Source of the DNA: Bacillota bacterium
Lineage (GTDB): Bacteria; Bacillota; Proteinivoracia; UBA4975
DNA: 62,839 nucleotides
Assembly: GCA_012523545.1 (NCBI GenBank)
Contig: JAAYIH010000040.1
Coordinates: forward strand, 1 to 62,839
Direction: 5' to 3'
A program made the translations under genes and the position numbers. Under the pieces are notes generated by a model, which had not been told where the DNA came from, searched no databases, and saw nothing but the letters and a program-made list of their open reading frames with translations. Below are positions 39,889 through 55,530 of the stretch, in pieces; position 1 is the stretch's first letter, and each line of letters begins with the position of its first letter.

Positions 39889-41541
39889 TTGGCGGATAAA
39901 CAGGAGAGGCTTGCCAAGTGGCGGGCACAGCTGGAAAAGGCTCTGGAGCGATTTCCCGAGCGCAAAAAGAGTTTTACCACCAGCTCGGGCATTGAACTGA
40001 AAACGGTTTACACCGACCTGGACCTGCCTCCTGCGGTGGATGACTTCCCTTTGCCCGGTGAGTTTCCTTACACCAGGGGCGTTCAGCGCAACATGTACCG
40101 CGGCCGCCTGTGGACAATGCGGCAATACGCCGGCTTTGCCACTGCCGAGGAATCCAACGAGCGCTACAAGTACTTGCTTTCCCAGGGGCAGACTGGCCTC
40201 AGCGTTGCCTTTGACCTGCCCACTCAAATCGGTCTCGATTCGGACCATCCTCTGGCCGACGGCGAGGTGGGCAAGGTGGGGGTTGCCATCGATTCGCTGG
40301 CTGACATGGAGGTTCTGTTTAAAGACATTCCTCTGGACAAAGTCAGCACATCCATGACCATCAACGCCCCGGCCATGGTACTTCTGGCCATGTACCTGGT
40401 GGTTGCCGAGAAACAGGGCGTGGACTGGGCCTCCCTCAAGGGCACCATTCAAAACGACATTCTCAAAGAGTATGTCGCCCGGGGGACCTATATCTTCCCG
40501 CCCGAGCCCTCGCTGAAGATCATCACCGACATATTTGCCTTCTGCGCAGAAAATGTGCCCAATTGGAATACCATCAGCATCAGCGGTTACCACATCCGCG
40601 AGGCCGGGGCCACCGCGGTGCAGGAAATTGCCTATACTCTTGCCAACGCCATCTGTTATGTGGAATCGGCAATCAAAGCCGGTTTGAATGTGGATGACTT
40701 TGCACCCAGGCTGTCATTCTTTTTCAACGCCCATTCCAATTTCTTTGAGGAAATTGCCAAGTTCCGGGCGGCCAGAAAGCTGTGGGCAGAAATTATGCGC
40801 CACCGGTTCGGAGCGCAAAATCCCAAATCCATGCTGCTGCGTTTCCACACCCAGACCGGCGGCTCGACTTTGACTGCCCAGCAGCCTGACAATAACATAG
40901 TCAGGGTGGCCCTCCAGGCGCTGTCTGCCGTTTTGGGCGGAACCCAGTCCCTGCATACCAACTCCCGGGACGAGGCTTTGGCCTTGCCCAGCGAAGAATC
41001 GGTGCGCATCGCGCTAAGGACACAACAGATCATTGCCCATGAGACCGGGGTTGCCGATGTGGTTGACCCCTTGGGCGGCAGCTACTATGTTGAGAGTCTG
41101 ACCGCCGAAATTGAAAAGCGCGTGAAGGAAGAGCTGGCCAAAATCGATGCAATGGGCGGGGCAGTCACCGCCATCAATTCCGGTTATATCCAGCGCCAAA
41201 TCCAGGACAGCGCCTACCAGTTCCAGATGGCGGTGGAAACTAAGGAGCAGATTATTGTCGGCGTCAACCAGTTTACCGTCGAAGAAGAAACCCAACCCGA
41301 TTTGTTGCGGGTGGATCCTTCCGTTCAGGCGGCCCAAATCAGACGCCTGCAGGAGCTGAAGAGCCGGCGCGACAGCGCTAAAGTCCGGCAAGCCCTGGAC
41401 GCAGTGGCCGCAGCTGCCAGAGAGGGCGCCAACCTGTTCCCGCCGGTATTGGATGCAGTGCGCAGTTATGCAACCCTGGGCGAAATTTGCGGCGTTCTCC
41501 GCGAAGTATACGGAGAATATCAAGCCAAGGATTTGATCTAA
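39889..41541 (+). CDS. mcmA1: Methylmalonyl-CoA mutase, catalytic (large) subunit
   Basis: 550 aa from TTG 39889 (GGAGGTGA five bases upstream). TIM-barrel mutase domain only; the B12-binding domain is a separate protein. Recognisable signatures: [47 protein letters not shown] and [18 protein letters not shown]. Interconverts succinyl-CoA and methylmalonyl-CoA. Followed 16 bases later by the cobalamin-binding subunit. Confidence 0.95.
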
Positions 41542-41557
41542 AGGAGGTTAGGCCAAT

Positions 41558-41959
41558 ATGGTTCCCATCAGAGTTCTCGTGGCAAAACCGGGACTGGACG
41601 GCCATGACCGGGGTGCCAAGGTGGTTGCCCGGGCCCTGCGGGACGCCGGCATGGAGGTAATCTATACCGGCCTGCGCCAATCCCCGGAGCAAATTGTGCG
41701 CGCCGCCATCCAGGAGGATGTGGATATGGTGGGTTTAAGCTGTCTTTCCGGAGCCCATAATTCCCTCTTTCCCAAAGTTGTCCAGTTGCTGAAGGAGGCG
41801 GGGGCGGAGGATATCCAGGTCTTCGGCGGCGGCGTCATTCCAGAAAGCGATATCCCCGGCCTCCTGGAAGCTGGAGTGCGTGCAGTGTTTACCCCCGGAA
41901 CTCCTTTGGAGGAAATCGTCAACTTCGTCAGGGAAAGTGTGAAAAAAGGCGATGCCTGA
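41558..41959 (+). CDS. mcmA2: Methylmalonyl-CoA mutase, cobalamin-binding (small) subunit
   Basis: 133 aa B12-binding fold with the base-off signature DGHDRGAK (H16 as the cobalt ligand), SCLSGAHN and GGGVIPESD. Works with the large subunit. Strong AAAGGAGG ribosome-binding site. Overlaps meaB by 8 bases. Confidence 0.95.
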
Positions 41960-42866
41960 TTCCTGGCAGCGACAACTGGCCAAAACTATCTCCAGGATAG
42001 AAAACATGGACACCGAGGCCCTGGTCCAGCTGGCCCGGTGTCCCCTTGACAACCCCAATGTCCACGTTATTGGCGTCACCGGTCCCCCGGGGGGCGGCAA
42101 AAGCACCCTGTGCGGCCAGCTGGTACAAAACCTGGCCCGGGAACATAAGGTGGCCGCCCTGCTGGTGGATCCCTCCAGTCCGTATTCCGGAGGGGCTATC
42201 CTGGGGGACAGAATTCGCATGTCCGCTTTGTCCGCCAACCCAAACGTATATATTCGTTCCCTCAGCAATCGGGGCAACACCGGCGGAGTCAACAGCACTG
42301 TGGTCAGCATCATCAGGGCAGTTATGAATTGCGGCTTCGAATATATCATCGTGGAGACAGTGGGGGCAGGACAATCCGAGGTCAAAATAGCTTCTATCGC
42401 CGACACCACCCTGGTGGTGGCTGTTCCCAACCTGGGTGATGACATCCAGGCCTTTAAGTCCGGAATCATGGAAATTGCAGATATCTTTGTGATAAACAAA
42501 GCTGATTTGCCGGGGGCGGACGTTCTCTTTGCCGCCCTCCGGGAATCGGCAGTCAGGCACAAGGACGGGTGGCTTACTCCTGTTTGCCAGACTGTGGCCG
42601 TGGAAGGCAGGGGCATTGATTCTCTCCTGGACTACATCCGCGCACACGGGGACTGGCTGCGCCGGCAGGGTCGTTTGACCGAGAAACGCAAGCAGGCTGC
42701 CAAATTTGAAATCCTTGAGCTCAGCAGCTACTACCTGCAAAGCCACCTGGACCAAGTGCCTGCCGACGTTCTGGCGGCAAATTTGGCCAATAAAGACTTT
42801 AACATGCTGCAAAGGCTGCTGGATGCGTATCGCGAGATAGTAAATTCCTTAAGTGAGGTGAATTAG
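41952..42866 (+). CDS. meaB: MeaB/ArgK GTPase, methylmalonyl-CoA mutase chaperone
   Basis: 304 aa G3E GTPase: Walker A GPPGGGKS (44-51), [28 protein letters not shown] and NKAD. Guards the mutase against inactivation and gates cofactor loading. Overlapping the mutase gene and directly before the epimerase is its usual place. Confidence 0.95.
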
Positions 42867-43277
42867 ATGTTCAAAAAGATCGACCATCTCGGCATTGCTG
42901 TGGAAAACCTCGACGAGGCCGTGCGTTTATACCGTGATGTATTGGGGCTGAAATACGCCGGGGAAGAGACGGTGGCGGAACAAAAGGTCAGGACAGCCTT
43001 CTTCCCGGTGGGCGAAAGCTCCATCGAGCTGTTGGAGCCCACCGATCCCGAAAGCCCCATTGCCAAATTCCTGGACAAGAGAGGTCCCGGCATTCACCAC
43101 ATCGCTTTGCGGGTGGATGACGTTGCCCAGGCCATCAGCGCCTTGAAAGCCCAGGGAGTGCGCATGATAGACGAAGAACCCAGGACCGGCGCCCACGGGG
43201 CCAAAATCGCCATTATCCACCCCAAATCCACGCCGGGAGTATTAATTGAACTATGTCAACGGGATCAGGAGGTTTAA
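42867..43277 (+). CDS. mce: Methylmalonyl-CoA epimerase
   Basis: 136 aa vicinal-oxygen-chelate protein: IDHLGIAVENLDEA at the N-terminus, GIHHIALRVDD, and a C-terminal Glu in VLIELCQ. Interconverts the (2R)- and (2S)-methylmalonyl-CoA forms made by the mutase and used by the decarboxylase. Starts at the base after the meaB stop. Confidence 0.94.
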   Translation: MFKKIDHLGIAVENLDEAVRLYRDVLGLKYAGEETVAEQKVRTAFFPVGESSIELLEPTDPESPIAKFLDKRGPGIHHIALRVDDVAQAISALKAQGVRMIDEEPRTGAHGAKIAIIHPKSTPGVLIELCQRDQEV

Positions 43278-43278
43278 A

Positions 43279-44823
43279 ATGAAGGATTGGCAAGAACTGC
43301 ACCAGGAACTGGCGGAGAAACGAGCCAAAATCCACGGCGGCGGCGGACCAAAAGCTGTGGAAAAGCAACTGGCGCAAGGCAAAAACACCGCCCGGCAACG
43401 CCTGGAGATGTTGCTTGACCCCGGTTCCTTTGTTGAACTCAATACCTTTGTCAAGCATCGCTGCACCGACCTGGGCATGGACAAAAAAGAGACCCCGGGC
43501 GAAGGCGTGGTGACCGGCTACGGGACCATTGGCGGCCGTCTGGTCTACGTGTTTGCCCAGGACTTCACCGTGGTCGGCGGCAGCCTGGGCGAGATGCACG
43601 CCAGAAAGATTTGCAATGTCATGGACCTGGCTGCCAAGACCGGCGCGCCGGTTATTGGGCTTAACGATTCCGGCGGCGCCCGGATCCAGGAAGGGATCGA
43701 CGCCCTCAACGGGTACGGCGAAATTTTCCGCCGCAACACTTTGTATTCCGGCGTTCTCCCGCAGATTTCGGTCATCCTGGGTCCCTGTGCCGGCGGCGCA
43801 GTATACTCGCCGGCCATCACCGACTTTATCTTTATGACCAGGGACACCAGCCAGATGTTTATCACCGGGCCTCAGGTAATCAAAGCCGTCACCGGCGAAA
43901 CCATCAGCCCCGAAGCCCTGGGCGGCGGCCTCGCCCACAATGCCACCAGCGGCGTCGCCCATTTTTTGGCTGAAGACGAGGCCGAATGCCTCAACCAGGT
44001 GCGCAGACTGATCAGCTATCTTCCCGCCAATAACCTCGAGAAGGCGCCGGAGGTACAGCCAGTACCGCCCCGGGAGGTTGACTTTACTCAGTTGGTGCCG
44101 GTCAACCCCAACCAGGGTTACGATGTGCGCGAGGTAATCGCCGCTGTTTTCGACGGGGATTCCTTTATGGAAGTGCAAGCCATGTTTGCTCCCAACGCCG
44201 TGGTGGGCTTTGCACGGCTACAGGGCAAGACCGTCGGGGTGGTTGCCAATCAGCCTCAACACCTGGCCGGTTGTTTGGACATAAACGCTTCCGACAAAAT
44301 CGCCCGCTTTATTCGGTTCTGCGATTGCTTTAACATTCCGGTGGTGACTTTCGTGGATGTACCCGGCTATTTGCCCGGCGTCCAGCAGGAACACAACGGC
44401 ATCATCCGCCACGGGGCCAAGATACTCTTTGCCTATTCTGAAGCCAGCGTGCCCAAAGTAACTGTCATCCTGCGCAAGGCTTACGGCGGCGCGTATGTCG
44501 CCCTGGGCAGCAAGTCCCTGGGGGCTGACATTGTCCTTGCCTGGCCCACTGCCGAAGTGGCAGTGATGGGACCGGAGGGCGCTGTCAATATTATCTTCCG
44601 CAAGGAACTGGCCGACGCCGAGGATGCCAATGCCCGCCGCCAGGAACTGGTCAAGGAATATCGTGAAAACTTTGCCAATCCTTATGTGGCAGCGGGCCGG
44701 GGTTTGGTGGATGAAGTCATCGAGCCCGCCAGCACCCGAACCCACCTCATCAACGCCCTGACCATTCTGGCAGGAAAACGGGAGCAGAAGCCGGCAAAGA
44801 AGCACGGCAATATTCCCCTGTAG
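43279..44823 (+). CDS. mmdA: Methylmalonyl-CoA decarboxylase / propionyl-CoA carboxylase carboxyltransferase subunit
   Basis: 514 aa from ATG 43279 with AGGAGG upstream. Two crotonase-like halves: ARQRLEMLLDPGSF, GGSLGEMHARKI, NDSGGARIQEG in the first; VDVPGYLPGVQQE, RKAYGGAYVALGSKSLGAD in the second. With the downstream OadG-, biotin- and OadB-type genes it forms a Na+-translocating decarboxylase rather than an ATP-dependent carboxylase, since no biotin carboxylase gene is nearby. Confidence 0.94.
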   Translation: MKDWQELHQELAEKRAKIHGGGGPKAVEKQLAQGKNTARQRLEMLLDPGSFVELNTFVKHRCTDLGMDKKETPGEGVVTGYGTIGGRLVYVFAQDFTVVGGSLGEMHARKICNVMDLAAKTGAPVIGLNDSGGARIQEGIDALNGYGEIFRRNTLYSGVLPQISVILGPCAGGAVYSPAITDFIFMTRDTSQMFITGPQVIKAVTGETISPEALGGGLAHNATSGVAHFLAEDEAECLNQVRRLISYLPANNLEKAPEVQPVPPREVDFTQLVPVNPNQGYDVREVIAAVFDGDSFMEVQAMFAPNAVVGFARLQGKTVGVVANQPQHLAGCLDINASDKIARFIRFCDCFNIPVVTFVDVPGYLPGVQQEHNGIIRHGAKILFAYSEASVPKVTVILRKAYGGAYVALGSKSLGADIVLAWPTAEVAVMGPEGAVNIIFRKELADAEDANARRQELVKEYRENFANPYVAAGRGLVDEVIEPASTRTHLINALTILAGKREQKPAKKHGNIPL

Positions 44824-44836
44824 AGGAGGGTGGGAC

Positions 44837-45145
44837 ATGGATCTGCAACTGGGTTTGCGGATTACCGTGATTGGCATGGGCATTGTATTTGCCAGTCTGT
44901 TTGCCCTGGCCGAGATAATAAAAATACCCAAAGTCCTGGTGAGTCCAAAAGTATCCGGGAAGGAAGTCCATGTTGCCCAATCCGACTCCCCGTCCCGGGA
45001 AACGACGATACCGCCCCAACACATAGCCGCAATTGCGGCTGTTGTCGCCGCCCTGGATCAGCCTTACCGAATTAGGGTAATCGATGTATTGGGCAATGAG
45101 AATTGGGAGCGGAGCAGGTACACCGACATCACTTCCCTGAATTAG
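44837..45145 (+). CDS. Na+-pumping decarboxylase gamma/delta-type small subunit (OadG family)
   Basis: 102 aa. One N-terminal transmembrane helix (about 6-28: GLRITVIGMGIVFASLFALAE), which is typical of OadG, then a linker and a short C-terminal motif IAAVVAALDQPYRIRVI shared with small subunits of these enzymes. It stabilises the membrane complex. ATG with GAGGAGG upstream. Confidence 0.85.
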   Translation: MDLQLGLRITVIGMGIVFASLFALAEIIKIPKVLVSPKVSGKEVHVAQSDSPSRETTIPPQHIAAIAAVVAALDQPYRIRVIDVLGNENWERSRYTDITSLN

Positions 45146-45156
45146 GAGGTCTGGCT

Positions 45157-45546
45157 ATGAAAAAATTCAAGATAACGGTTGACGGCAAGGAATACCATGT
45201 TGAGGTGGAGGAGGTAAGGGAAGAGAGCGCTCCCCGGGTCCAACGCCCTGTTGCTCCTGAGCCGGCTCCTGCACAGGCAGCGCCAGTTCCGGCACCGACT
45301 CCGCAAGCGGGAAGGCCGCAGGCGCCGGCTGGCGGCGGCAGCCTTACTGCGCCCATGCCCGGTACTGTTCTCAAAATCCTGGTCAAAGTCGGCGACAAAG
45401 TGGAACATGGCCAACCACTGGTTGTTCTGGAAGCCATGAAGATGGAAAACAATATCAACGCTCCTGCAGCAGGCACCGTCACCAGTATTGCTGTCAGCGA
45501 GGGGCAGAGCGTGGACACCGGTCAGCTTCTGCTGACCATTGAATAG
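45157..45546 (+). CDS. mmdC: Biotin carboxyl carrier protein of the decarboxylase
   Basis: 129 aa. Short N-terminal strand domain, a Pro/Ala-rich swinging linker (about 28-58), and a C-terminal biotinyl domain with EAMKM (biotin on K95). Carries CO2 from the carboxyltransferase to the membrane subunit. ATG with TTAGGAGGT upstream; an earlier ATG in frame lacks this site. Confidence 0.93.
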
Positions 45547-45556
45547 AGGAGTTGCC

Positions 45557-46687
45557 ATGGTTGAAAAGATTGTTCAGTTCTGGCAAAGCACCGGCTTTGC
45601 CCAGGCTGATGTCTACCAGCTGGTGATGGTTGCAATTTCCCTGTTTCTCATGTACCTGGCCATTGTCCGAAAATACGAGCCGTTGCTGTTGCTGCCCATC
45701 AGTTTTGGCATGCTTCTGGCCAATATCCCCGGCGCCAATCTCATGGCCGGACCGGAAAACGGCCAGCCGGGAGGGCTGTTGTACTACCTCTACCAGGGAG
45801 TCAAATTGGGCATTTATCCCCCGTTGATCTTTCTGGGTGTGGGCGCATTTACAGACTTTGGGCCCCTGATTGCCAATCCCAGGACATTGCTGTTGGGAGC
45901 GGCAGCCCAGTTCGGCATTTTCCTGACCTTCATCGGCGCCATTCTTCTGGGCTTTCCTGTTCACCAGGCCGCTTCCATCGGCATAATCGGCGGCGCAGAC
46001 GGGCCAACTGCCATTTACCTGACATCCCGACTGGCGCCGGAACTGCTGGGGCCCATCGCAGTGGCCGCCTATTCGTACATGGCCCTGGTTCCCATCATAC
46101 AGCCCCCCATCATGCGGCTGCTGACTACCAAAAAAGAACGCCAGATTGTCATGGAACAGCTGCGTCCCGTCAGCAAGACGGAAAAGATCCTCTTTCCCAT
46201 CATCGTCACCATCTTAACGGGCTTTTTGCTGCCCTCGGCCGTACCCCTCATCGGCATGTTGATGCTGGGCAACCTCTTCCGCGAATCCGGCGTCGTGGAC
46301 AGGTTGTTTAAGGCTGCGCAGAACGAGGTGAACAACATCGTCGTCATTTTTCTGGGGACAACGGTGGGCGCCACTGCTTCGGCGGACATCTTCCTGCGCT
46401 GGGAAACCATAAAGATCATCCTCCTCGGCCTTGCCGCCTTTTCCGTCGGTACTGCTGCCGGTGTTCTCTTCGGCAAGCTGATGTGTTGGCTGACCAAGGG
46501 CAAGGTTAACCCTCTGATCGGTTCTGCAGGGGTTTCGGCGGTGCCCATGGCCGCCCGTGTTTCCCAGCTGGTCGGTCTGAAGGAAAACCCCAACAATTAC
46601 CTGCTGATGCATGCCATGGGTCCCAACGTCGCGGGGGTAATCGGCTCTGCCATTGCCGCGGGCATTCTCTTGTCGCTGCTGGGGTAG
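45557..46687 (+). CDS. mmdB: Na+-translocating decarboxylase beta subunit
   Basis: 376 aa, about nine or more hydrophobic helices. OadB-family markers [13 protein letters not shown] and [13 protein letters not shown], and [14 protein letters not shown] are present. It decarboxylates carboxybiotin and exports Na+. ATG 45557 with AGAGGAG upstream. It completes a four-part Na+ pump with MmdA, the small subunit and the biotin carrier. Confidence 0.95.
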
Positions 46688-46762
46688 TTGGACTGTGCCC
46701 CTTGCTACAACTCCCGATATATGTGAAAATATAATCGTGACCTGTATAGGAGGTAGGAGTCA

Positions 46763-47335
46763 GTGCTGAAAATACCGGTTGGAGTGTCCAACAGGCACGT
46801 CCATTTATCGGCGCAGGACCTGGAGAAGTTGTTTGGCCCGGGCTATCAGTTGACCCGGTCCAAAGACCTGGGACAACCCGGCCAGTATGCCGCCGATGAA
46901 AAAGTTGAGCTCATTGGACCGCGGGGCAGCATTGCCGGTGTGCGCGTGCTGGGTCCGTCCCGCAACCGCACCCAGGTGGAAATCTCCCGGACAGATTCCT
47001 TTAAACTGGGCATCAGCCCGCCGGTGCGGGATTCGGGGGAACTGGACGGCTCGGCGCCCATAACCATTAAGGGGCCGCTGGGGTCAATAGAGTTGCAGGA
47101 AGGGGCCATTATTGCCCACCGCCACATCCACATTACTCCCGACCTGGCAGAAGCCAACGGGCTGGAGGACAAGCAGTTGGTGTCGGTCCGTTGTGACGGC
47201 CCGCGGGCTTTGACCTTTGACAAGGTCCTGGTCAGGGTCAGCGAAAATTTCAGCCTGGAGTTCCACGTGGATGTGGATGAGGCCAATGCAGCTTTGCTCA
47301 ACAACGGCGACCTGGTGACTCTCCTGAAAGCTTAA
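46763..47335 (+). CDS. pduL: Phosphate propanoyltransferase (PduL)
   Basis: 190 aa. Converts propionyl-CoA and phosphate to propionyl phosphate for ATP formation by a kinase. The two zinc-binding halves show NRHVHLS and HRHIHIT. GTG start with AGGAGGTAGGAG. A 75-base gap separates it from mmdB and no strong terminator lies in that gap, so it may be transcribed with the cluster. No microcompartment shell genes are near, so it is a free enzyme here. Confidence 0.93.
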   Translation: MLKIPVGVSNRHVHLSAQDLEKLFGPGYQLTRSKDLGQPGQYAADEKVELIGPRGSIAGVRVLGPSRNRTQVEISRTDSFKLGISPPVRDSGELDGSAPITIKGPLGSIELQEGAIIAHRHIHITPDLAEANGLEDKQLVSVRCDGPRALTFDKVLVRVSENFSLEFHVDVDEANAALLNNGDLVTLLKA

Positions 47336-47352
47336 ATTGACCGGGCAATCAT

Positions 47353-47379
47353 AAAAAGACACAATTATTGTGTCTTTTT
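47353..47379. terminator. Bidirectional terminator after pduL
   Basis: Perfect 12-bp stem AAAAAGACACAA / TTGTGTCTTTTT with a TTA loop. Works on both strands by sequence. Confidence 0.85.
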
Positions 47380-47407
47380 GCCTTAAAGCTCGGGATTTCG
47401 ACAAAAA

Positions 47408-47466
47408 ACGGACGACAACTCGCAGAATACCCCCGGAAACATTGACTCTGCTATCGCTGCCGTCCG
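47408..47466 (-). ncRNA. Candidate structured RNA between pduL and mnmH
   Basis: Read on the minus strand: GGACGGCAGC pairs with GTTGTCGTCC over 10 bp including two G-U pairs, then an inner GCAGA/TCTGC stem, an 18-20 base loop with CCGGGGGT, and GTTTTTTG after the stem. On the plus strand the two G-U pairs become A-C mismatches, so the minus strand is the better fold. A TCATAT 17 bases after TTGTGC could be a minus-strand promoter (47490-47473 region). Could be a small RNA or a terminator. No family recognised. Confidence 0.35.
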
Positions 47467-47551
47467 CATTTATATGATGTCCACGCTCCAGTGGGCACAA
47501 ACAAACAAATTTTGCATCCGCCAGCATTTTAGGGTAAAGAAGGTTGGAGCA

Positions 47552-48586
47552 GTGCAATTGGTGAAACAAATTGAAGTGGAGGATGTCCTCGACCAGCCGG
47601 AATACCAGCTCATCGATGTCAGGACTGCTTCGGAGTTCAGCCAGGGCAAAATTCCGGACAGCATCAACATTCCGCTTTTTGATGAAGAGGAAAGGGCGCG
47701 AATCGGAGCCGTTTACAAAAAGAACGCCAAGGCGGCCCGGTTTCTGGCCATGGACATCCTCAGCCCCAATATCTCTCGCTTTGTGCGCAAAGTCCACGGC
47801 GCCAGCTGCGGCAAGGTGCCCGTAGCCGTTTGTTGGCGGGGCGGCATGCGCAGCAAGGCGGCTGTGCAACTATTGGGCATGGCGGGGATTGACGGGCTGC
47901 AGTTGCGGGGAGGCTATAAGCGCTTCCGTCAATACGTCTATCAGCAACTGCAAAGCTTTCAGCTCGAGGCGCGGGTAATTGTCCTCAAGGGCAAGAGTGG
48001 AACCGGCAAGACTGATATTCTGCGCCTGTTGGCCCAAAAGGGCTTCCCGGTGCTGGACCTGGAGGGCCTGGCCTGCCACCGGGGTTCAACTTTCGGGACC
48101 CTGGAGAATTCTCCCGCCACGCAAAAAGACTTCGACGCCCTCCTTCTCCGCAGGCTCAACAGCCTGTCCGGATGCCAATGGATCTTGGTAGAAGGGGAAA
48201 GCAAGCGCATCGGCAATATTTATCTGCCAGACTTTTTGTTCCAGGCCATGCGCAACGCTCCGGTCGTCGTGGTGGAGGGAAGCCTGCCCGTTCGCGTCCA
48301 GCGCATTTTGCGCGACTACACGCCCACTTCTCTGCAAGCCCGGCTGACGATGTACCGCGCCCTGTACCGCCTGCGGCACAGATTGTCAAGAACCAGCCTG
48401 ATTGAATTAAAACAGTGCCTGGACCGGGAGGATTACAGGCGCTTTGCAGAGCTGATTTTGCTCCGCCACTACGACAATACCTACGATTACCAAATCCCCG
48501 GCAAAGAAGTGCTGGCCACCGTCAATTCCGATGACATCGAAAAAGCGGCGGCTGAGATCATAGCTGTGCTCAATAATGTAAAATGA
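47552..48586 (+). CDS. mnmH: tRNA 2-selenouridine synthase (MnmH/SelU)
   Basis: 344 aa. Exchanges sulfur for selenium in the wobble 2-thiouridine of some tRNAs. N-terminal rhodanese domain with the active cysteine in VCWRGGMRS (C94), then a P-loop domain with GKSGTGKT (147-154) and LEGLACHRGSTFG. Start uncertain among GTG 47552 (AAGG eight bases upstream), TTG 47558 and GTG 47561; the frame opens earlier at 47474 without support. Implies the cell makes selenophosphate, though selD is not in the window. Confidence 0.92.
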   Translation: MQLVKQIEVEDVLDQPEYQLIDVRTASEFSQGKIPDSINIPLFDEEERARIGAVYKKNAKAARFLAMDILSPNISRFVRKVHGASCGKVPVAVCWRGGMRSKAAVQLLGMAGIDGLQLRGGYKRFRQYVYQQLQSFQLEARVIVLKGKSGTGKTDILRLLAQKGFPVLDLEGLACHRGSTFGTLENSPATQKDFDALLLRRLNSLSGCQWILVEGESKRIGNIYLPDFLFQAMRNAPVVVVEGSLPVRVQRILRDYTPTSLQARLTMYRALYRLRHRLSRTSLIELKQCLDREDYRRFAELILLRHYDNTYDYQIPGKEVLATVNSDDIEKAAAEIIAVLNNVK

Positions 48587-48611
48587 TGCCCCTCGAGGGC
48601 ATCATTTTTTG
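48581..48611. terminator. Bidirectional terminator between mnmH and the hemerythrin gene
   Basis: Perfect 11-bp stem AAATGATGCCC / GGGCATCATTT (48581-48591, 48597-48607), CTCGA loop, T run; includes both stop codons. Confidence 0.85.
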
Positions 48612-49024
48612 CTGACCATGGCGGCAAAGGCGTCGTGTTCACGCCTGAAATGCGCTTCAATGCAATCCAGGAGAGCGTTGCCGCAGTCGAGTATGTTGCC
48701 CGCAGCCGGGCCGTCGTCCCGGAGTTCTGCCTGGAGGCGACAACAGGCCTGCTTTATGGCTTCGTGGTCCTGGCGCAGGGCGCTGACTGTCGAGTCCAGT
48801 CCCGGATTGGTTTTGAGCAGTTTGGGATATAGTTCTTCTTCCTCCTGGACAAAATGCTGGTTTATGGCTTGGTTGACCACGCCGGCAAATTCCCGCAGTT
48901 GATCTTTGACTCCGTTTAATTCACCGCTCGCCCCGGCGCCGGCCAATTTGGCCCTTAGATTGTCGGCCATGGCCAGTACCGCCAGGTGCTCCGCCGTCAA
49001 AGTGGCCAACATTTGTTTGGACAT
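48602..49024 (-). CDS. Hemerythrin HHE-domain protein
   Basis: 140 aa. Four-helix bundle with iron ligands suggested by EHLAVL (about residue 12), NQHFVQEEEELYP (about 55-67), RQDHEAIK (about 85) and HFRREHDAF near the C-terminus. In anaerobes such proteins bind O2, NO or sense iron and may protect against oxygen. GAGGTGAT precedes the minus-strand ATG. Convergent with mnmH, divergent from miaB. Confidence 0.88.
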   Translation of the reverse strand: MSKQMLATLTAEHLAVLAMADNLRAKLAGAGASGELNGVKDQLREFAGVVNQAINQHFVQEEEELYPKLLKTNPGLDSTVSALRQDHEAIKQACCRLQAELRDDGPAAGNILDCGNALLDCIEAHFRREHDAFAAMVSKK

Positions 49025-49106
49025 AAAATCACCTCAGCACTAAGTATGTGCCAAACGAGAGCAAAGTTGTATGCCAGATTGTGGCGCACGGCTGGTTGCA
49101 GACCTT

Positions 49107-49135
49107 TTGCCCTAATCCGCGCTATCGTGTAAAAT
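49107..49135 (+). promoter_or_regulatory. Candidate sigma-A promoter for miaB-mutSL
   Basis: TTGCCC (49107-49112), 17-base spacer, TAAAAT (49130-49135), 32 bases before the miaB start. Confidence 0.55.
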
Positions 49136-49166
49136 ATAGGCAGATTTACCAGCGGAGGAATTAAAG

Positions 49167-50492
49167 TTGACCAGAACTGAACTGAAAACCTATTACATTC
49201 GCACCTTTGGCTGCCAGATGAATGAGCGCGATAGTGAGACCGTTGCCGGGATTTTCCGGGCCAGAGGCATGACAGAAGCCCCAGACATGGCTTCGGCAGA
49301 TATCATCATGATAAACACCTGCGCCGTGCGGGAAAAGGCCGAACAAAAGGTATACGGCCTGCTGGGCACGTTGCGTGAACTTAAAGAGAATAATCCCGAT
49401 GTGGTGCTGGGTATCTGCGGCTGTATGCCCCAACAGCAGGAAGTGGCCAAACGTATTAAGACCCGCTTCCCCTACATGGATATCATCATTGGCACTCATA
49501 ATCTCAATGCCCTCAACTATTACCTGGAACAAGTGCTTCAGGAGCGCCGACAGGTGCTGGAAATCTGGCAGGAGCGGGCCGAAAAGGAACTGGAATTGCC
49601 GGCCCGCCGCTCCGGCAAGTACAAGGCCTTTGTCAACATCAACTGGGGTTGCAACAACTTTTGCACATACTGCATCGTGCCCTATGTCCGGGGCAGGGAA
49701 AAGAGCAGGCCGCCGGAGACCATAATCAGGGAAATCGAGGCCCTGGCCAGAGAAGGTTTTGTGGAAGTCACCCTGCTGGGCCAGAATGTCAACAGTTACG
49801 GCAAAGATCTGCCGGGGAAGCCCGATTTCGCCGATTTGCTGCGCATGGTCAATGACATTCCCGGAATTGAAAGAATCCGCTTCATGACTTCCCATCCCCG
49901 GGATGCCGGCGACCGGCTGTTTGAGGCCATGGCCACGCTGCCCAAAGTGTGCAATCATCTGCACCTGCCCCTCCAGGCCGGCAACAACCGCATTCTGGAG
50001 CGCATGAACAGGGGCTATACCGCCGAACACTATCTGCGCATTGTCGAGAAATTGCGTGCGGCAGTGCCGGACATAGCACTCACCACCGACCTTATCGTCG
50101 GTTTTCCCGGCGAAACTGAAGCGGAGTTTCAGGACACCCTGGCCATGGTGGAAAAGGTACGCTTTGATTCCGCCTTTACCTTTATGTTTTCGCCGCGCCG
50201 GGGTACACCCGCTGCCAAAATGAAGGGGCAGCTGGATTCGGAGATAAAGAAGGAAAGGCTGCAACGCCTGATTAAGCTGCAAAACCAGATCAGCCTGGAA
50301 CGCAACCAGCAGCTGGTGGGTACGGTCCAGCAAGTCCTGGTGGAAGAGCGTACCGGCACCATCAACAAAGGGCGGACAACCAGCAACAAGCTCGTTTTCT
50401 TTGCCAGCGGCCGCGACCTTTCCGGTCACCTGGTGCCCGTAAGAATAACCAACGCAAAGACCTGGAGTCTGGAAGGAGAACTGGGGGACTGA
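49167..50492 (+). CDS. miaB: tRNA-2-methylthio-N6-dimethylallyladenosine synthase
   Basis: 441 aa. Radical SAM methylthiotransferase acting on i6A37, which is made by MiaA encoded 6 kb downstream. N-terminal cysteines in TFGCQMNERDSE, NTCAVRE, GCMPQ; radical SAM CNNFCTYC (about residue 162); C-terminal TRAM domain. TTG start with GCGGAGGAA 8 bases upstream. First gene of the miaB-mutS-mutL-miaA-hfq cluster, as in many Clostridia. Confidence 0.96.
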   Translation: MTRTELKTYYIRTFGCQMNERDSETVAGIFRARGMTEAPDMASADIIMINTCAVREKAEQKVYGLLGTLRELKENNPDVVLGICGCMPQQQEVAKRIKTRFPYMDIIIGTHNLNALNYYLEQVLQERRQVLEIWQERAEKELELPARRSGKYKAFVNINWGCNNFCTYCIVPYVRGREKSRPPETIIREIEALAREGFVEVTLLGQNVNSYGKDLPGKPDFADLLRMVNDIPGIERIRFMTSHPRDAGDRLFEAMATLPKVCNHLHLPLQAGNNRILERMNRGYTAEHYLRIVEKLRAAVPDIALTTDLIVGFPGETEAEFQDTLAMVEKVRFDSAFTFMFSPRRGTPAAKMKGQLDSEIKKERLQRLIKLQNQISLERNQQLVGTVQQVLVEERTGTINKGRTTSNKLVFFASGRDLSGHLVPVRITNAKTWSLEGELGD

Positions 50493-50496
50493 TACC

Positions 50497-53040
50497 TTGA
50501 AAATTACGCCGATGATGCGCCAGTACCGGGAAACCAAAGCCCAATATCCCGATTGCTTGCTCATGTTCCGGGTGGGGGATTTCTTCGAACTCTTTTATGA
50601 AGACGCTGTTATTGCTGCCCGGGAATTGAACATAGTGCTGACCAGCCGTGACAAAAAAGAGGGAGAAGAGGGGACCCCCATGGCAGGGGTGCCCCATCAT
50701 GCCCTGGAAACTTACCTCGGCCGCCTGGTCAAAAAAGGTTACAAAGTGGCCATTTGCGACCAGGTGGAAGACCCGCAACTGGCCAAGGGATTAGTCAAAC
50801 GAGAAGTGGTGCGGGTGGTAACCCCGGGTACCATCATCGAAGACAACCTCCTGGATCCGGCCAGGAACAATTGGTTGCTGGCGCTGGTGCGCCGGAGCGA
50901 GGAGTGGGGGGTGGCCTATGTCGATGTGTCCACTGCCCAGTTTCAGTGCACTGAGTTTGCGGGCAGCAAAGAGCAGGTGGAATCGTTTATCCTATCCCTC
51001 AATCCTTCCGAAATCATTGTGGCGGACAAAACCCATGCCCAGGGCATAAAAAGCATTATTACAGAAGTACAGGAAGACTCACAGTCACTTCACGACCTTT
51101 ACCGGCAATTGCCCCGGAACCATTTTTTGCACTCCCGGCCGCTGGCGGCCAGGGCGGTGGCTATGGTCTGCGCTTATTTAAAGGACAAGCATATCTTTTC
51201 CCCCCATTTGACCGAAATTTCCTGGCACGAGCCCCAAAATTATCTCCATCTGGATGCTGCTTCCCAGCGCAATTTGGAAGTGCTGGTCCCTCTGGACGGC
51301 AGCCCCAACGGGCCCAGCTTGTTGCGGGTGGTGGACAAGACCGTAACCGCCATGGGCAGCAGGATGTTAAAAAACATACTGGTCACACCCCTGGCTGATG
51401 TCCGGGCGATTCAGCGCCGACTGGACTGGGTTGAGTTTTTCTATCAGCGCTACATGGTGCGCACAAAACTGAGGAATATATTGCGGGATATATACGATCT
51501 GGAGCGCATTTTGACCAAGGTCAGCTACAAAACAGTCAATGCCAGGGATTTGCTCGCTATGGCTGCCTCGCTGCGGGCAGTACCCCAAATTGCCCAGCTG
51601 GTGGCCGGGCTGGACTGGGAGGCTGTGGCAACATTAACCGATTATGATGCCCTGTGCTCGTTGCTGGAAAGGGCCATCAATCCCGATCCTCCGGCGACCA
51701 TCCGCGAGGGGAATATAATCAGGGAAGGCTACTCCCCGGAATTGGACGAACTCCGCGTCCTGGCGGCTTCGGCCAGCACCTGGATCAGGCAATACGAGGC
51801 ATCCCTCCGGGAAGAAACGGGGATAAAGTCCCTGAAAATCGGTTACAACAAGGTCTTTGGCTATTATATTGAAGTGACCAGGGCCAACTTGTCACTGGTT
51901 CCCGATTACTTCATACGCAAGCAGACCCTGGTCAATTCCGAACGCTTTGTCACTCCCCAGTTGCAGGAGTGGGAGGACAAAATTCTCTCGGCTGCCGAAC
52001 GCATGCAAAACCTGGAATACCAGCTTTTTTGCCAGGTCCGGGACGAAGTCAGCCGCTGGATTCCCCGCATTCAGGCCACAGCCCGGGCTTTGGCCGGTCT
52101 GGATTGCTGGCAGAGCCTGGCTGAGGTTGCGGCAGAATACCGCTACTGCAGGCCCGAAGTGGAAGAAAGCAGCGTCCTGGCCATTGAAGAAGGCCGGCAT
52201 CCCGTGGTGGAGCGGTTCGGCGGCACTGCATTTGTGCCCAATGACTGCCACATGGACACCGGTACGCGGCAAATCATGATTATTACCGGCCCCAACATGG
52301 CCGGCAAATCGACATATATGCGTCAGGTGGCCCTCATCGCCCTGCTGGCCCATGTGGGCAGTTTCGTTCCCGCCCGCTCAGCCAGAATCGGTGTGTTGGA
52401 CGGCATCTATACCCGCATTGGGGCCAGCGACGACCTCGCTTCGGGGCGCAGTACCTTTATGGTGGAAATGTCCGAACTGGCCAGTATCCTGAGCCGGGCC
52501 ACGCCCAACAGCCTCATCCTCCTGGACGAGATAGGCCGGGGTACAGGAACTGCCGACGGGCTCAGCATAGCCCGGGCCACCCTGGAATATATCCACGAGA
52601 ACCCGGCTGTGGCCGCCAAGACCCTCTTTGCCACCCATTACCACCAGCTCATTGCCCTGGCCGATGCGTTGCCCCGGGTGGTGAATTGTTCGGTTCAGGT
52701 CGCTGAGCGCGGAGGCGAGGTAACATTTTTGCACAAAATAGTCCCCGGCGGCAGCGATCGGAGCTACGGCATTCACGTGGCCAAGCTGGCGGGCTTGCCT
52801 GCGCAGCTGGTGGAACGGGCAGAGCATTATTTGCGGCAGAACTTTGGGGAAGAAAACTTCCTGCCTGCCCGGGACCAGGCTGCTGCGGCCAAAGCGGAGC
52901 AGCTGCATCCCGTTTTGGAGCAGCTTTTGCATTTCCTGAACCAGCTGGATTTGGACGGCCTTTCTCCCCGTCAGGCCTGGCTGGCACTGGAACGCTTGCA
53001 GCAGTTGGCAACAGGGGTGGTGAGGGAAGATGAAAATTAG
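50497..53040 (+). CDS. mutS: DNA mismatch repair protein MutS
   Basis: 847 aa. N-terminal mismatch-binding motif FRVGDFFELF (F-x-E type), connector and lever domains, clamp region, then the ABC ATPase with GPNMAGKST and LLDEIGRGT and the C-terminal HTH. TTG start five bases after miaB; the site GGGGG is modest. Overlaps mutL by 11 bases. Confidence 0.97.
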   Translation: MKITPMMRQYRETKAQYPDCLLMFRVGDFFELFYEDAVIAARELNIVLTSRDKKEGEEGTPMAGVPHHALETYLGRLVKKGYKVAICDQVEDPQLAKGLVKREVVRVVTPGTIIEDNLLDPARNNWLLALVRRSEEWGVAYVDVSTAQFQCTEFAGSKEQVESFILSLNPSEIIVADKTHAQGIKSIITEVQEDSQSLHDLYRQLPRNHFLHSRPLAARAVAMVCAYLKDKHIFSPHLTEISWHEPQNYLHLDAASQRNLEVLVPLDGSPNGPSLLRVVDKTVTAMGSRMLKNILVTPLADVRAIQRRLDWVEFFYQRYMVRTKLRNILRDIYDLERILTKVSYKTVNARDLLAMAASLRAVPQIAQLVAGLDWEAVATLTDYDALCSLLERAINPDPPATIREGNIIREGYSPELDELRVLAASASTWIRQYEASLREETGIKSLKIGYNKVFGYYIEVTRANLSLVPDYFIRKQTLVNSERFVTPQLQEWEDKILSAAERMQNLEYQLFCQVRDEVSRWIPRIQATARALAGLDCWQSLAEVAAEYRYCRPEVEESSVLAIEEGRHPVVERFGGTAFVPNDCHMDTGTRQIMIITGPNMAGKSTYMRQVALIALLAHVGSFVPARSARIGVLDGIYTRIGASDDLASGRSTFMVEMSELASILSRATPNSLILLDEIGRGTGTADGLSIARATLEYIHENPAVAAKTLFATHYHQLIALADALPRVVNCSVQVAERGGEVTFLHKIVPGGSDRSYGIHVAKLAGLPAQLVERAEHYLRQNFGEENFLPARDQAAAAKAEQLHPVLEQLLHFLNQLDLDGLSPRQAWLALERLQQLATGVVREDEN

Positions 53041-54748
53041 GGTGCTGGACGCCGAAACTGTACAGAAAATAGCTGCCGGCGAAGTCATAGAACGGCCTGC
53101 CTCGGTGGTCAAAGAACTGGCGGAAAACGCCGTCGACGCCGGCGCCAGGACGATTATCATTGAGGTATTTAAGGGCGGATTGGAAAGAATAACGGTTAGC
53201 GACGACGGTCATGGCATGGAGCCGCAGGACCTGGCACTGGCGGTGGACCGGCATGCCACCAGCAAAATTTCTTCCAGTGCCGACCTGTTCGACATCAACA
53301 CCCTGGGCTTTCGCGGCGAGGCCCTGGCCAGCATCGGAGCGGTGGCGGAGCTGACTGTGGTCAGCAGAACCAGAGACCGCTGGGAAGGGAGCCGCATTGT
53401 AGTGCGCGGCGGCGAGAAGGGAGCAGTGGAACCCGTTGCCAGCCCGGGGGGCACAAAAGTTACGGTGGCTAATTTGTTTTACAACACGCCGGCGCGCATG
53501 AAGTTTTTGCGCAGTGCCGCGGCTGAGTTTGCCGCCATCACCCAGACAGTTTCCCAGCTGATTCTGGCTTGTCCCCACATTGCCTTTAAACTGTCCCACA
53601 ACGGCAAGTCTGTGCTGAATGCGCCGGGCACCGGCGACCTCAGGGACGCCGTGGCTTGCCTGGCCGGTACAGATATTGCCGACGCACTGCTGGAATGCAA
53701 CCTGTCCAGGGGCGGATATTCGTTGCACGGGTATATCGCCGACCCTAAATTTCACCGGGGCAACCGGTCCATGCAGTTTTTCACAGTCAACGGACGTCCG
53801 GTCAACGTTCCCCTCATTGCCAGCGCAGTGGAAAAAGCCTTTCACACCCTGCTTCCTGTCCGCCGTTTTCCGCTGGCTTTTCTCAACATCAGGGTGCCCA
53901 ACGACCTGGTGGATGTAAATGTCCATCCTGCCAAGCGGGAAGTGAAATTTACCGACGGCAATGCAGTTTTTCACCTGGTGTACAGCGCCTGCCTGCAGGC
54001 TCTGCAGGGCATGACCCAATGGACTTTTTCAGGTCGCGAGGGTGAACCTGTTTCAGCACCGGTGCCCCAGCGGGCAGAAGCCCAGGCGTTTGCGACCTAT
54101 TCCCGCCCGCGCCAGGAGGACGGATATATACAGGAAGCACTGGAATTGCCCAGCGTAACAGCAGCGGATGGGCTGGGAAACATGGAGATTTTGGGCCAGG
54201 TGTTTTCCACATACGTTGTGATTGCTACTGACCGGGAACTGCGCCTGCTGGATCAGCACGCCGCCCAGGAAAGGGTGTTGTATGAAAAATACCTGCAGAG
54301 CCTCCGGGAAGGGCAACGGCCCAGCCAGGTGGTGGTACCGGTGGAAACACCGGTGTCCGGCCGGATGCGCCAGTTCCTGGCCGTCCATCTTCACCGTTTG
54401 GCCGAATTGGGGTTTAAAATTGAGTTAACGGATGAAGCCATGATTATCAGGGAAGTTCCCATTTTGTTCAAAGCCGTTCTCACCCCCAGGGACGTCAACG
54501 AGATTCTCGAGACGCTGGAGGATGCCCAGGGCGCCGGCTACAATCTCAGCGATTACAGCCAGGCCGCCATGATGCTCCTGGCCTGCAAGGGGGCAGTCAA
54601 AGCCAATCAGCGCCTGTCCAGGGCAGAGGTCCGCCAGCTTCTGCTGGACCTCGACCGCTGCCAAAACAGCCGGACATGTCCCCACGGGCGCCCTATCTGG
54701 ATTGCCTTTGACCGGGCGGACCTGGAAAAAATGTTTGCCAGGAGATAA
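53030..54748 (+). CDS. mutL: DNA mismatch repair protein MutL
   Basis: 572 aa. GHKL ATPase N-terminus: VIERPASVVKELAENAVDAGA, DDGHGM, GFRGEALASI. The C-terminal domain holds the metal-binding endonuclease motif DQHAAQERVLYE (about residue 408) of the DQHA(x)2E(x)4E form, and further ACKGAVKANQ, CPHGRP; so this MutL nicks DNA itself, as expected in bacteria without MutH. Confidence 0.96.
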   Translation: MKIRVLDAETVQKIAAGEVIERPASVVKELAENAVDAGARTIIIEVFKGGLERITVSDDGHGMEPQDLALAVDRHATSKISSSADLFDINTLGFRGEALASIGAVAELTVVSRTRDRWEGSRIVVRGGEKGAVEPVASPGGTKVTVANLFYNTPARMKFLRSAAAEFAAITQTVSQLILACPHIAFKLSHNGKSVLNAPGTGDLRDAVACLAGTDIADALLECNLSRGGYSLHGYIADPKFHRGNRSMQFFTVNGRPVNVPLIASAVEKAFHTLLPVRRFPLAFLNIRVPNDLVDVNVHPAKREVKFTDGNAVFHLVYSACLQALQGMTQWTFSGREGEPVSAPVPQRAEAQAFATYSRPRQEDGYIQEALELPSVTAADGLGNMEILGQVFSTYVVIATDRELRLLDQHAAQERVLYEKYLQSLREGQRPSQVVVPVETPVSGRMRQFLAVHLHRLAELGFKIELTDEAMIIREVPILFKAVLTPRDVNEILETLEDAQGAGYNLSDYSQAAMMLLACKGAVKANQRLSRAEVRQLLLDLDRCQNSRTCPHGRPIWIAFDRADLEKMFARR

Positions 54749-54750
54749 CC

Positions 54751-55530
54751 ATGATAATCACTACATCCCGCAAGCCTGTCGCCCAGCTAGTTCAGGAGGC
54801 CATGGAAATAGGGCGCAGGTACGGAATTACATACATTGACAGGGGCAACCTCAGCCTGTCCGGGTTGCTGGACCGATACGGCGCTGTCCTGGTTTTGAGC
54901 AGGGAACGCCTTTCCTGCCATACCGCCGCCGGTGAATTGTTTTTCCATCCCAATATGGCTGCGGTGCGCATCAAGCTGATGCGGCAAGGCAAGACAGATC
55001 GCATGGTCCGGGTAATGGGGCTCAAACCCGGGGACAATGTGCTGGACTGCACTGCCGGTTTTTGCGCCGACAGCCTGGTGGCGCAAATGGCGGTGGGCCA
55101 GCAGGGAAGGGTAGTGGCGCTGGAAAAATCTCTGCCGGTGTACCTGGTGGCAGACCATGGCTTGCGGCACTATTCCGGACCGGAAAGGCTGCGGGAACTC
55201 GCCCGGGCCATTGAGCTCCGCCATGCCGACTTTCGGGAGTACCTGGAAGCGTTGCCGCCAGGGAGCTTCGACGTGGTTTATTTCGACCCCATGTTTTCCA
55301 AACCCATTCTGGAAGCAGCTGCCTTGCGGCCCCTGCGGCCGCTGGCCTTTCACCGCCCCCTGACTCGGGAGGATATTGCCCTGGCTTCCCGTGTGGCCAG
55401 GCGCAGGGTGGTGGTTAAACAGCATTCCTCCTTTGATTTTGCCGGTTTGGGGTTGAGCTTGGCGCCGGGGAGTGAGGATAAGAAAATAGCCTACGGCGTT
55501 TTGGACATAAAGGAGAGTAACGATGGCTGA
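54751..55530 (+). CDS. Class I SAM-dependent methyltransferase (RsmJ-like fold)
   Basis: 259 aa. SAM-binding motif I VLDCTAGFCADSL, and VVYFDPMFSK, a DPMF motif like that of the RsmJ 16S rRNA m2G1516 methyltransferase family. The N-terminal 90 residues are an extra domain (TTSRKPVAQLVQEA). Common between mutL and miaA in Clostridia, with target unproven. Start two bases after mutL; overlaps miaA by 8 bases. Confidence 0.8.
   Translation: MIITTSRKPVAQLVQEAMEIGRRYGITYIDRGNLSLSGLLDRYGAVLVLSRERLSCHTAAGELFFHPNMAAVRIKLMRQGKTDRMVRVMGLKPGDNVLDCTAGFCADSLVAQMAVGQQGRVVALEKSLPVYLVADHGLRHYSGPERLRELARAIELRHADFREYLEALPPGSFDVVYFDPMFSKPILEAAALRPLRPLAFHRPLTREDIALASRVARRRVVVKQHSSFDFAGLGLSLAPGSEDKKIAYGVLDIKESNDG

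Follow-up and report, generated by a model that had tools for sequence, protein, structure and literature searches.

Evidence for a conserved minus-strand small RNA gene between pduL and mnmH in one order of Bacillota

The DNA analysed here (referred to as the window) is a stretch of 62,839 nucleotides from a Bacillota bacterium (contig JAAYIH010000040.1), in which the element of interest lies in the gap between pduL and mnmH. The two gene names, given in an initial annotation of the window, were confirmed by a match of pduL to Pfam PTAC over the cut-off and by matches of mnmH to two NCBIfam MnmH models over the cut-off. The hairpin, the T6 run and the bidirectional terminator that this annotation had placed between the two genes were all found as described. 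By eye, mnmH likely starts at about 47553-47562, preceded by the Shine-Dalgarno-like aaggttggag. The features of the locus are as follows.

46763..47335, plus strand: pduL (phosphate propanoyltransferase), the 5' neighbour
47353..47379, both strands: terminator-like element formed by a perfect inverted repeat of 13 bp and A/T tracts, common to pduL and the small RNA
47353..47468, minus strand: putative small RNA transcript of about 115 nt, both ends predicted
47395..47408, minus strand: tail TTTTTTGTCGAAAT 3' of the hairpin
47408..47467, minus strand: hairpin of the small RNA, 60 nt, in the pduL-mnmH gap
47456-47467 with 47408-47419, minus strand: lower stem, 12 bp here and 13 in most relatives
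47452-47455 with 47420-47421, minus strand: 4x2 internal loop, GAUA facing GA
47446-47451 with 47422-47427, minus strand: upper stem of 6 bp, closing a variable apical loop
47450..47457, minus strand: GCGATAGC, the GAUA side of the internal loop plus the pairs that flank it, invariant in 7/7 genomes
47473..47502, minus strand: promoter candidate, GTTT (47499-47502), N16 and GGACATCATA (47473-47482), proposed from conservation only
47502..47515, minus strand: conserved A/T-rich block GCAAAATTTGTTTG, abutting the -35 candidate on its upstream side
47474..48586, plus strand: mnmH/selU frame, the 3' neighbour

When 81 nt of the minus strand were folded, an energy of -30.1 kcal/mol was obtained (z -3.97) and none of 200 shuffles was as good, whereas the plus strand of the hairpin region gave -14.3 kcal/mol (z -1.32), with 17 of 200 shuffles as good. 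A DNA search of 61 genomes located the gap in all five other genomes of the family that were examined (G001-G005), and in each of them the hairpin was observed between the same two genes. In the alignment of these six sequences, standard pairs occupied 95.6% of 114 pair cells, and both sides had changed at 8 of the 19 pairs (shuffle mean 2.4; 0 of 500 as high); when the partners were slid by 1 to 3 columns, at most two both-side changes were observed. The covariance model R1, built from the six family sequences without G006, then found the element in G006, a member of another family of the same order, in the same gap and orientation (50.5 bits, E 1e-10). With G006 included, in an alignment fitted to the covariance model, both-side changes were counted at 9 of 19 pairs (shuffle mean 2.6; 0 of 500). 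Hence the stem, for which the initial annotation had asked whether it is conserved outside this genome, is conserved in seven sequences.

The same annotation had held that the hairpin folds better on the minus strand through G-U pairs that become A-C mismatches on the plus strand, and the comparison bore this out. Four pairs in this genome are of this kind, and 18 of 19 pairs are formed on the minus strand versus 14 of 19 on the plus strand. On the minus strand, the 133 pair cells of the seven genomes divide into 109 Watson-Crick pairs, 17 G-U pairs and 7 mismatches of other kinds, with no A-C at all. The 17 G-U cells are spread over 7 of the 19 columns, with one G-U kept in all seven genomes, and because a minus-strand G-U is a plus-strand A-C, all of them are broken on the plus strand. 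Every single core (7/7) folded better on the minus strand. Furthermore, the RNAalifold consensus of the seven sequences was -32.7 kcal/mol on the minus strand versus -16.6 on the plus strand; it recovered both helices, with the lower one extended by two pairs. The plus-strand consensus fold also kept 15 pairs, 8 of them with both-side changes, since the reverse complement of a covarying stem must show covariation. The internal loop is GAUA on its 5' side and RA on its 3' side across the genomes. These results show that the hairpin with its invariant GAUA/RA internal loop, which has a conserved secondary structure and covaries on the minus strand, is under selection as a minus-strand RNA, and the evidence for reading the hairpin in this way is strong. 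A protein-coding reading was rejected: the apical loop varies in length and no common open frame was seen in the seven genomes. The internal loop did not fit a kink-turn; its invariant letters suggest a binding function beyond termination.

The distribution of the element was narrow. When 398 genomes of the phylum, drawn evenly from a larger group, were searched with model R2 under strict filters, the element was present in seven, all in this order. In 13 genomes of the class, the same seven carriers were recovered, together with a 20.4-bit match in G010. A pattern for the core hairpin, run over a collection of genome contigs, picked 25 stretches that were then scored with R1; four of them exceeded 50 bits (UBA5509, UBA5496, UBA5286 and UBA4975), all family genomes. 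The best of the other 21, from Sulfuricurvum, reached 24.7 bits and, being picked by the pattern, they were taken as chance. None of five viral stretches scored above 14.9 bits with R1. Weak R1 matches elsewhere were dropped, both the one in G010 and those of at most 25.1 bits (best in G034, E 0.003), and plus-strand matches in G003 (25.6 bits), G002 and G001 were the same element read backwards. The strong R1 match occurred once per genome. Taken together, these findings make it very probable that the minus strand of the locus carries a real, conserved small RNA gene that is restricted to one lineage. The palindromic sequence might instead point to an element acting as DNA, that is, a cruciform, a protein site or a mobile-element relic, as might the string TTTGTCGAA, which resembles the Spo0A box. 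Such an element gives no reason for the preference of G-T over A-C, 17 to 0, the finding of one strong match per genome also speaks against it, and we regard it as extremely improbable. The Spo0A-box reading itself was set aside: the window has one TTTGTCGAA, close to the 0.56 expected by chance, and the string is changed in G004 and G006.

The element precedes mnmH in 7/7 genomes and the letters of its internal loop are invariant, as they would be in a plus-strand 5' leader of mnmH, namely a regulatory element or riboswitch; since mnmH modifies tRNA with selenium, the initial annotation had suggested a selenium-linked signal. However, all wobbles favour the opposite strand, folding the consensus on the plus strand yields half the energy of the minus-strand fold, and in all seven genomes the RNA runs opposite to mnmH. 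An mnmH match with E < 1e-30 was found in 27 relatives (G001-G060), of which six had a strong match to the RNA; the other 21 gave no R1 match above 25.1 bits (R1 search with strict filters). Moreover, G007, a genome of the same order, retains pduL, the terminator and mnmH, with mnmH directly 3' of the pduL terminator and the RNA absent between them. A leader of mnmH is thus very unlikely, and the selenium-linked signal found no support. Among the open-access papers listed for mnmH with small-RNA, antisense, riboswitch or selenium themes, none pointed to this element.

We also considered whether the hairpin is only a large intrinsic terminator or a barrier between opposing transcription units. 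The T6 run 3' of the hairpin in this genome and the U-rich runs of G001 and G006 are in line with this, but the length of the U-run differs between genomes: at most three consecutive U directly follow the hairpin in 4/7 tails, and the runs are short in G002-G005. Six genomes have another, terminator-like hairpin after it, and conservation is higher in the letters of the internal loop than in most of the stem, a pattern that termination would not call for. A mere terminator or barrier is accordingly hard to believe in. Instead, transcription of the small RNA would start at about 47468, just 5' of the hairpin, and would end at the terminator that also ends pduL. A transcript of this extent agrees with the minus-strand RNA of about 110 bases that the initial annotation had thought possible. 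The TTTGTCGAAAT part of the tail is kept in 4/7 genomes and varied in G001, G004 and G006. The terminator-like repeat is kept in the six family genomes, and no clear repeat of this kind was seen in the pduL-mnmH gap of G006; this and the short U-runs in 4/7 tails are points against the reading as a stand-alone small RNA gene.

No known RNA accounted for the element. Rfam gave no match at the gathering level over 40000-55000; three rows obtained at up to E 10 over 47300-47620 had E of 2.3 or more and were taken as chance, and the six relative loci had no match. These results agree with the earlier opinion that the element is unrelated to known RNA families, in that no Rfam family searched matches it. 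6S RNA (RF00013), likewise a hairpin-shaped small RNA, had no match in the stretch of the window searched and is a separate gene elsewhere in 8/8 genomes searched. The nearest likeness is to CsfG of Bacillus subtilis, a small RNA opposite a gene leader that was first annotated, on the wrong strand, as the ylbH leader, and that is described as carrying conserved CU-rich stretches in its loops (PMC3574147); control of CsfG by a forespore sigma factor is described elsewhere (PMC9147052). Here, too, the small RNA lies opposite the leader region of a neighbouring gene. In contrast to CsfG, it has no CU-rich loops but a GAUA/RA internal loop and a variable apical loop, and the ylbH leader model RF00516, built on the other strand, gave no row at this locus (E 10, 47300-47620). 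Bvs196/S357 of Bacillus velezensis and B. subtilis, described as an independent sporulation small RNA with a sigma-F/G promoter, 294 nt long and located between hinT and ecsA (PMC9147052), is also intergenic; judged from the descriptions, it is set apart from this RNA by its length and neighbours.

Away from this locus, RF00516 gave sub-threshold matches of 20-26 bits (gathering 50) in 7/8 genomes, scores that alone mean little, as 5 of 14 control genomes also matched sub-threshold and only B. subtilis passed. Five of these matches lie directly 3' of tandem SASP genes (G000, G001, G002, G003 and G006), and their alignment showed 40 identical bases in 5/5 genomes, with CU-rich stretches. The sites of this CsfG-like RNA are L177 1501-1623 (own contig C24:87648-87770), L176, L180, L181 and L182, and a sigma-G-like promoter, TGAATA-N17-CAAACTA, was seen by eye in four family sequences. 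Since the CsfG-like RNA, conserved and adjacent to SASP genes, appears to be separate, the RNA between pduL and mnmH probably represents another family, distinct from it.

In the region upstream of the hairpin, all seven sequences agree at AAA, at two single positions, at TTGTTT and at GGnnA. These columns include GTTT-N16-GGnnA, which was found in 7/7 with a single spacing, 25-28 nt 5' of GCGATAGC. The consensus of the sigma-F/sigma-B class is GYWTA, about 15 nt, GGNRANANTW, and also GTTTAA, 12-15 nt, GGGWAW. The conserved motif thus bears a partial resemblance to promoters of the sigma-F/sigma-B type (forespore/general-stress); the seventh base of the -10 candidate is C in the six family genomes, off the sigma-F consensus. 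The TTGTGC/TCATAT promoter proposed in the initial annotation did not hold up: both strings exist, the sigma-70 scan, which reported no site upstream of the hairpin, did not pick them, and TTGTGC is not common to the relatives.

Promoters of other genes in these genomes were compared. Upstream of the SigG-type genes of the same seven genomes, GTTTA-N16-GGCAATACTA occurred by pattern in 2/7 (own genome and G006), and the -10 GGCAATACTA was seen by eye in 6/7, with varying -35 boxes. The CsfG-like RNA and some SASP genes have, by eye, the sigma-G-like TGAATA-N17 promoter given above or AGTATA-N16-CAATAATA; a sigma-G promoter for the present RNA was rejected, as its promoter candidate is unlike these. 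The promoter regular expressions gave no match in 26 SASP upstreams; 27 loci had been found, and six rows were unusable, namely L120, L126, L132 and L134 (wrong offset, contig ends) and L131 and L138 (N runs). The gpr upstreams appear to be operon-internal and hence uninformative for promoter type.

Genes for sporulation were found in the own genome. Contig C47 carries a spoIIA-like operon with SpoIIAB (anti-sigma-F) over the cut-off, a SpoIIAA-like gene of 100 bits (cut-off 114.75) and a sigma factor of the SigF/G family that reaches none of the curated cut-offs for the group. A SigG gene over the cut-off lies on contig C12, where it overlaps the next gene, spoIIR-like (141.5 bits versus a cut-off of 151.9; L090 3141-4477); it has a sigma-F-like promoter, the -10 of which is kept in 6/7 genomes. 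Two more sigma genes stand in tandem on contig C24 (L091 2735-4321) and were taken for sigE-like followed by sigG-like, as judged from sigF-model matches and gene order.

G007 is the sole RNA-less genome among the eight same-order genomes examined. Its best sigF-model match was 8.5e-37, whereas the other 20 genomes reached 7e-90 or better, the curated sigF cut-off being passed by only 4 of the 21. SASP matches numbered 0 in G007 versus 2-5 in the seven carriers, and Gpr matches were 0 in G007 and also in the carrier G004. Spo0A was kept in 21/21 genomes searched. With a genome of 1.5 Mb that has Spo0A and no sigF/sigG-grade sigma factors, SASP or Gpr matches, G007 shows an apparent loss of sporulation inside the order. 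The joint absence of the RNA and of these genes is one loss in a genome listed as 94% complete, and is suggestive, not proof. The same-class genomes G008-G012 have sigma-F-family genes and no strong RNA match (20.4 bits at most); sporulation therefore does not require the RNA.

If these observations are put together, a forespore or stress sigma factor of the sigma-F/sigma-B group would read the promoter, and the RNA would be produced during stress or in the developing forespore, this expression being the most likely because the promoter looks like that of the group. Such control is our best current guess, on which we stand evenly divided. The RNA may act in trans, either base-pairing via the unpaired tail and loop or offering its internal loop to a protein. 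On balance, we lean towards the whole reading, a stand-alone minus-strand small RNA acting in trans, likely under a forespore or stress sigma factor. Alternatively, the same small RNA might serve in housekeeping or stress, transcribed with the main sigma factor or a different one, and be unrelated to sporulation. The partial nature of the sigma-F resemblance, the upstream A/T-rich block, which would suit a strong vegetative promoter, and the same-class genomes that have sporulation genes without the RNA speak for this. Against it stand the absence of any site at this position in the sigma-70 scan, the lack, by eye, of a good, normally spaced -10 hexamer in G006, and the fact that the only RNA-less same-order genome examined is also the one without sigF/sigG-grade matches. 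We hold it to be the less likely reading. Returning to a forespore RNA, a bolder proposal, which is tentative and open to considerable doubt, is that this is a new forespore RNA family of one Bacillota order, separate from CsfG, in which GAUA/RA is a docking site for a protein or RNA in spore formation, and that it was lost with sporulation. The partial sigma-F match, the single loss in G007, the genomes G008-G012 and the carrier G004 without a Gpr match are points against a link to sporulation.

With this element, a lineage that has sporulation genes and has been little studied gains an RNA family backed by structural evidence. It also illustrates that an element wrongly assigned to a neighbouring gene, as CsfG was to ylbH, can be reassigned from the strand bias of its wobble pairs. 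If the link to sporulation is true, this would be a further conserved forespore RNA, far from Bacillus, for which a target could be sought.

G006, in which the terminator hairpin itself was not seen, also has the string CCGGG(C/T)AATCATAA; it lies directly 3' of the pduL stop (47341-47354 in the window) and is kept in 7/7 genomes.
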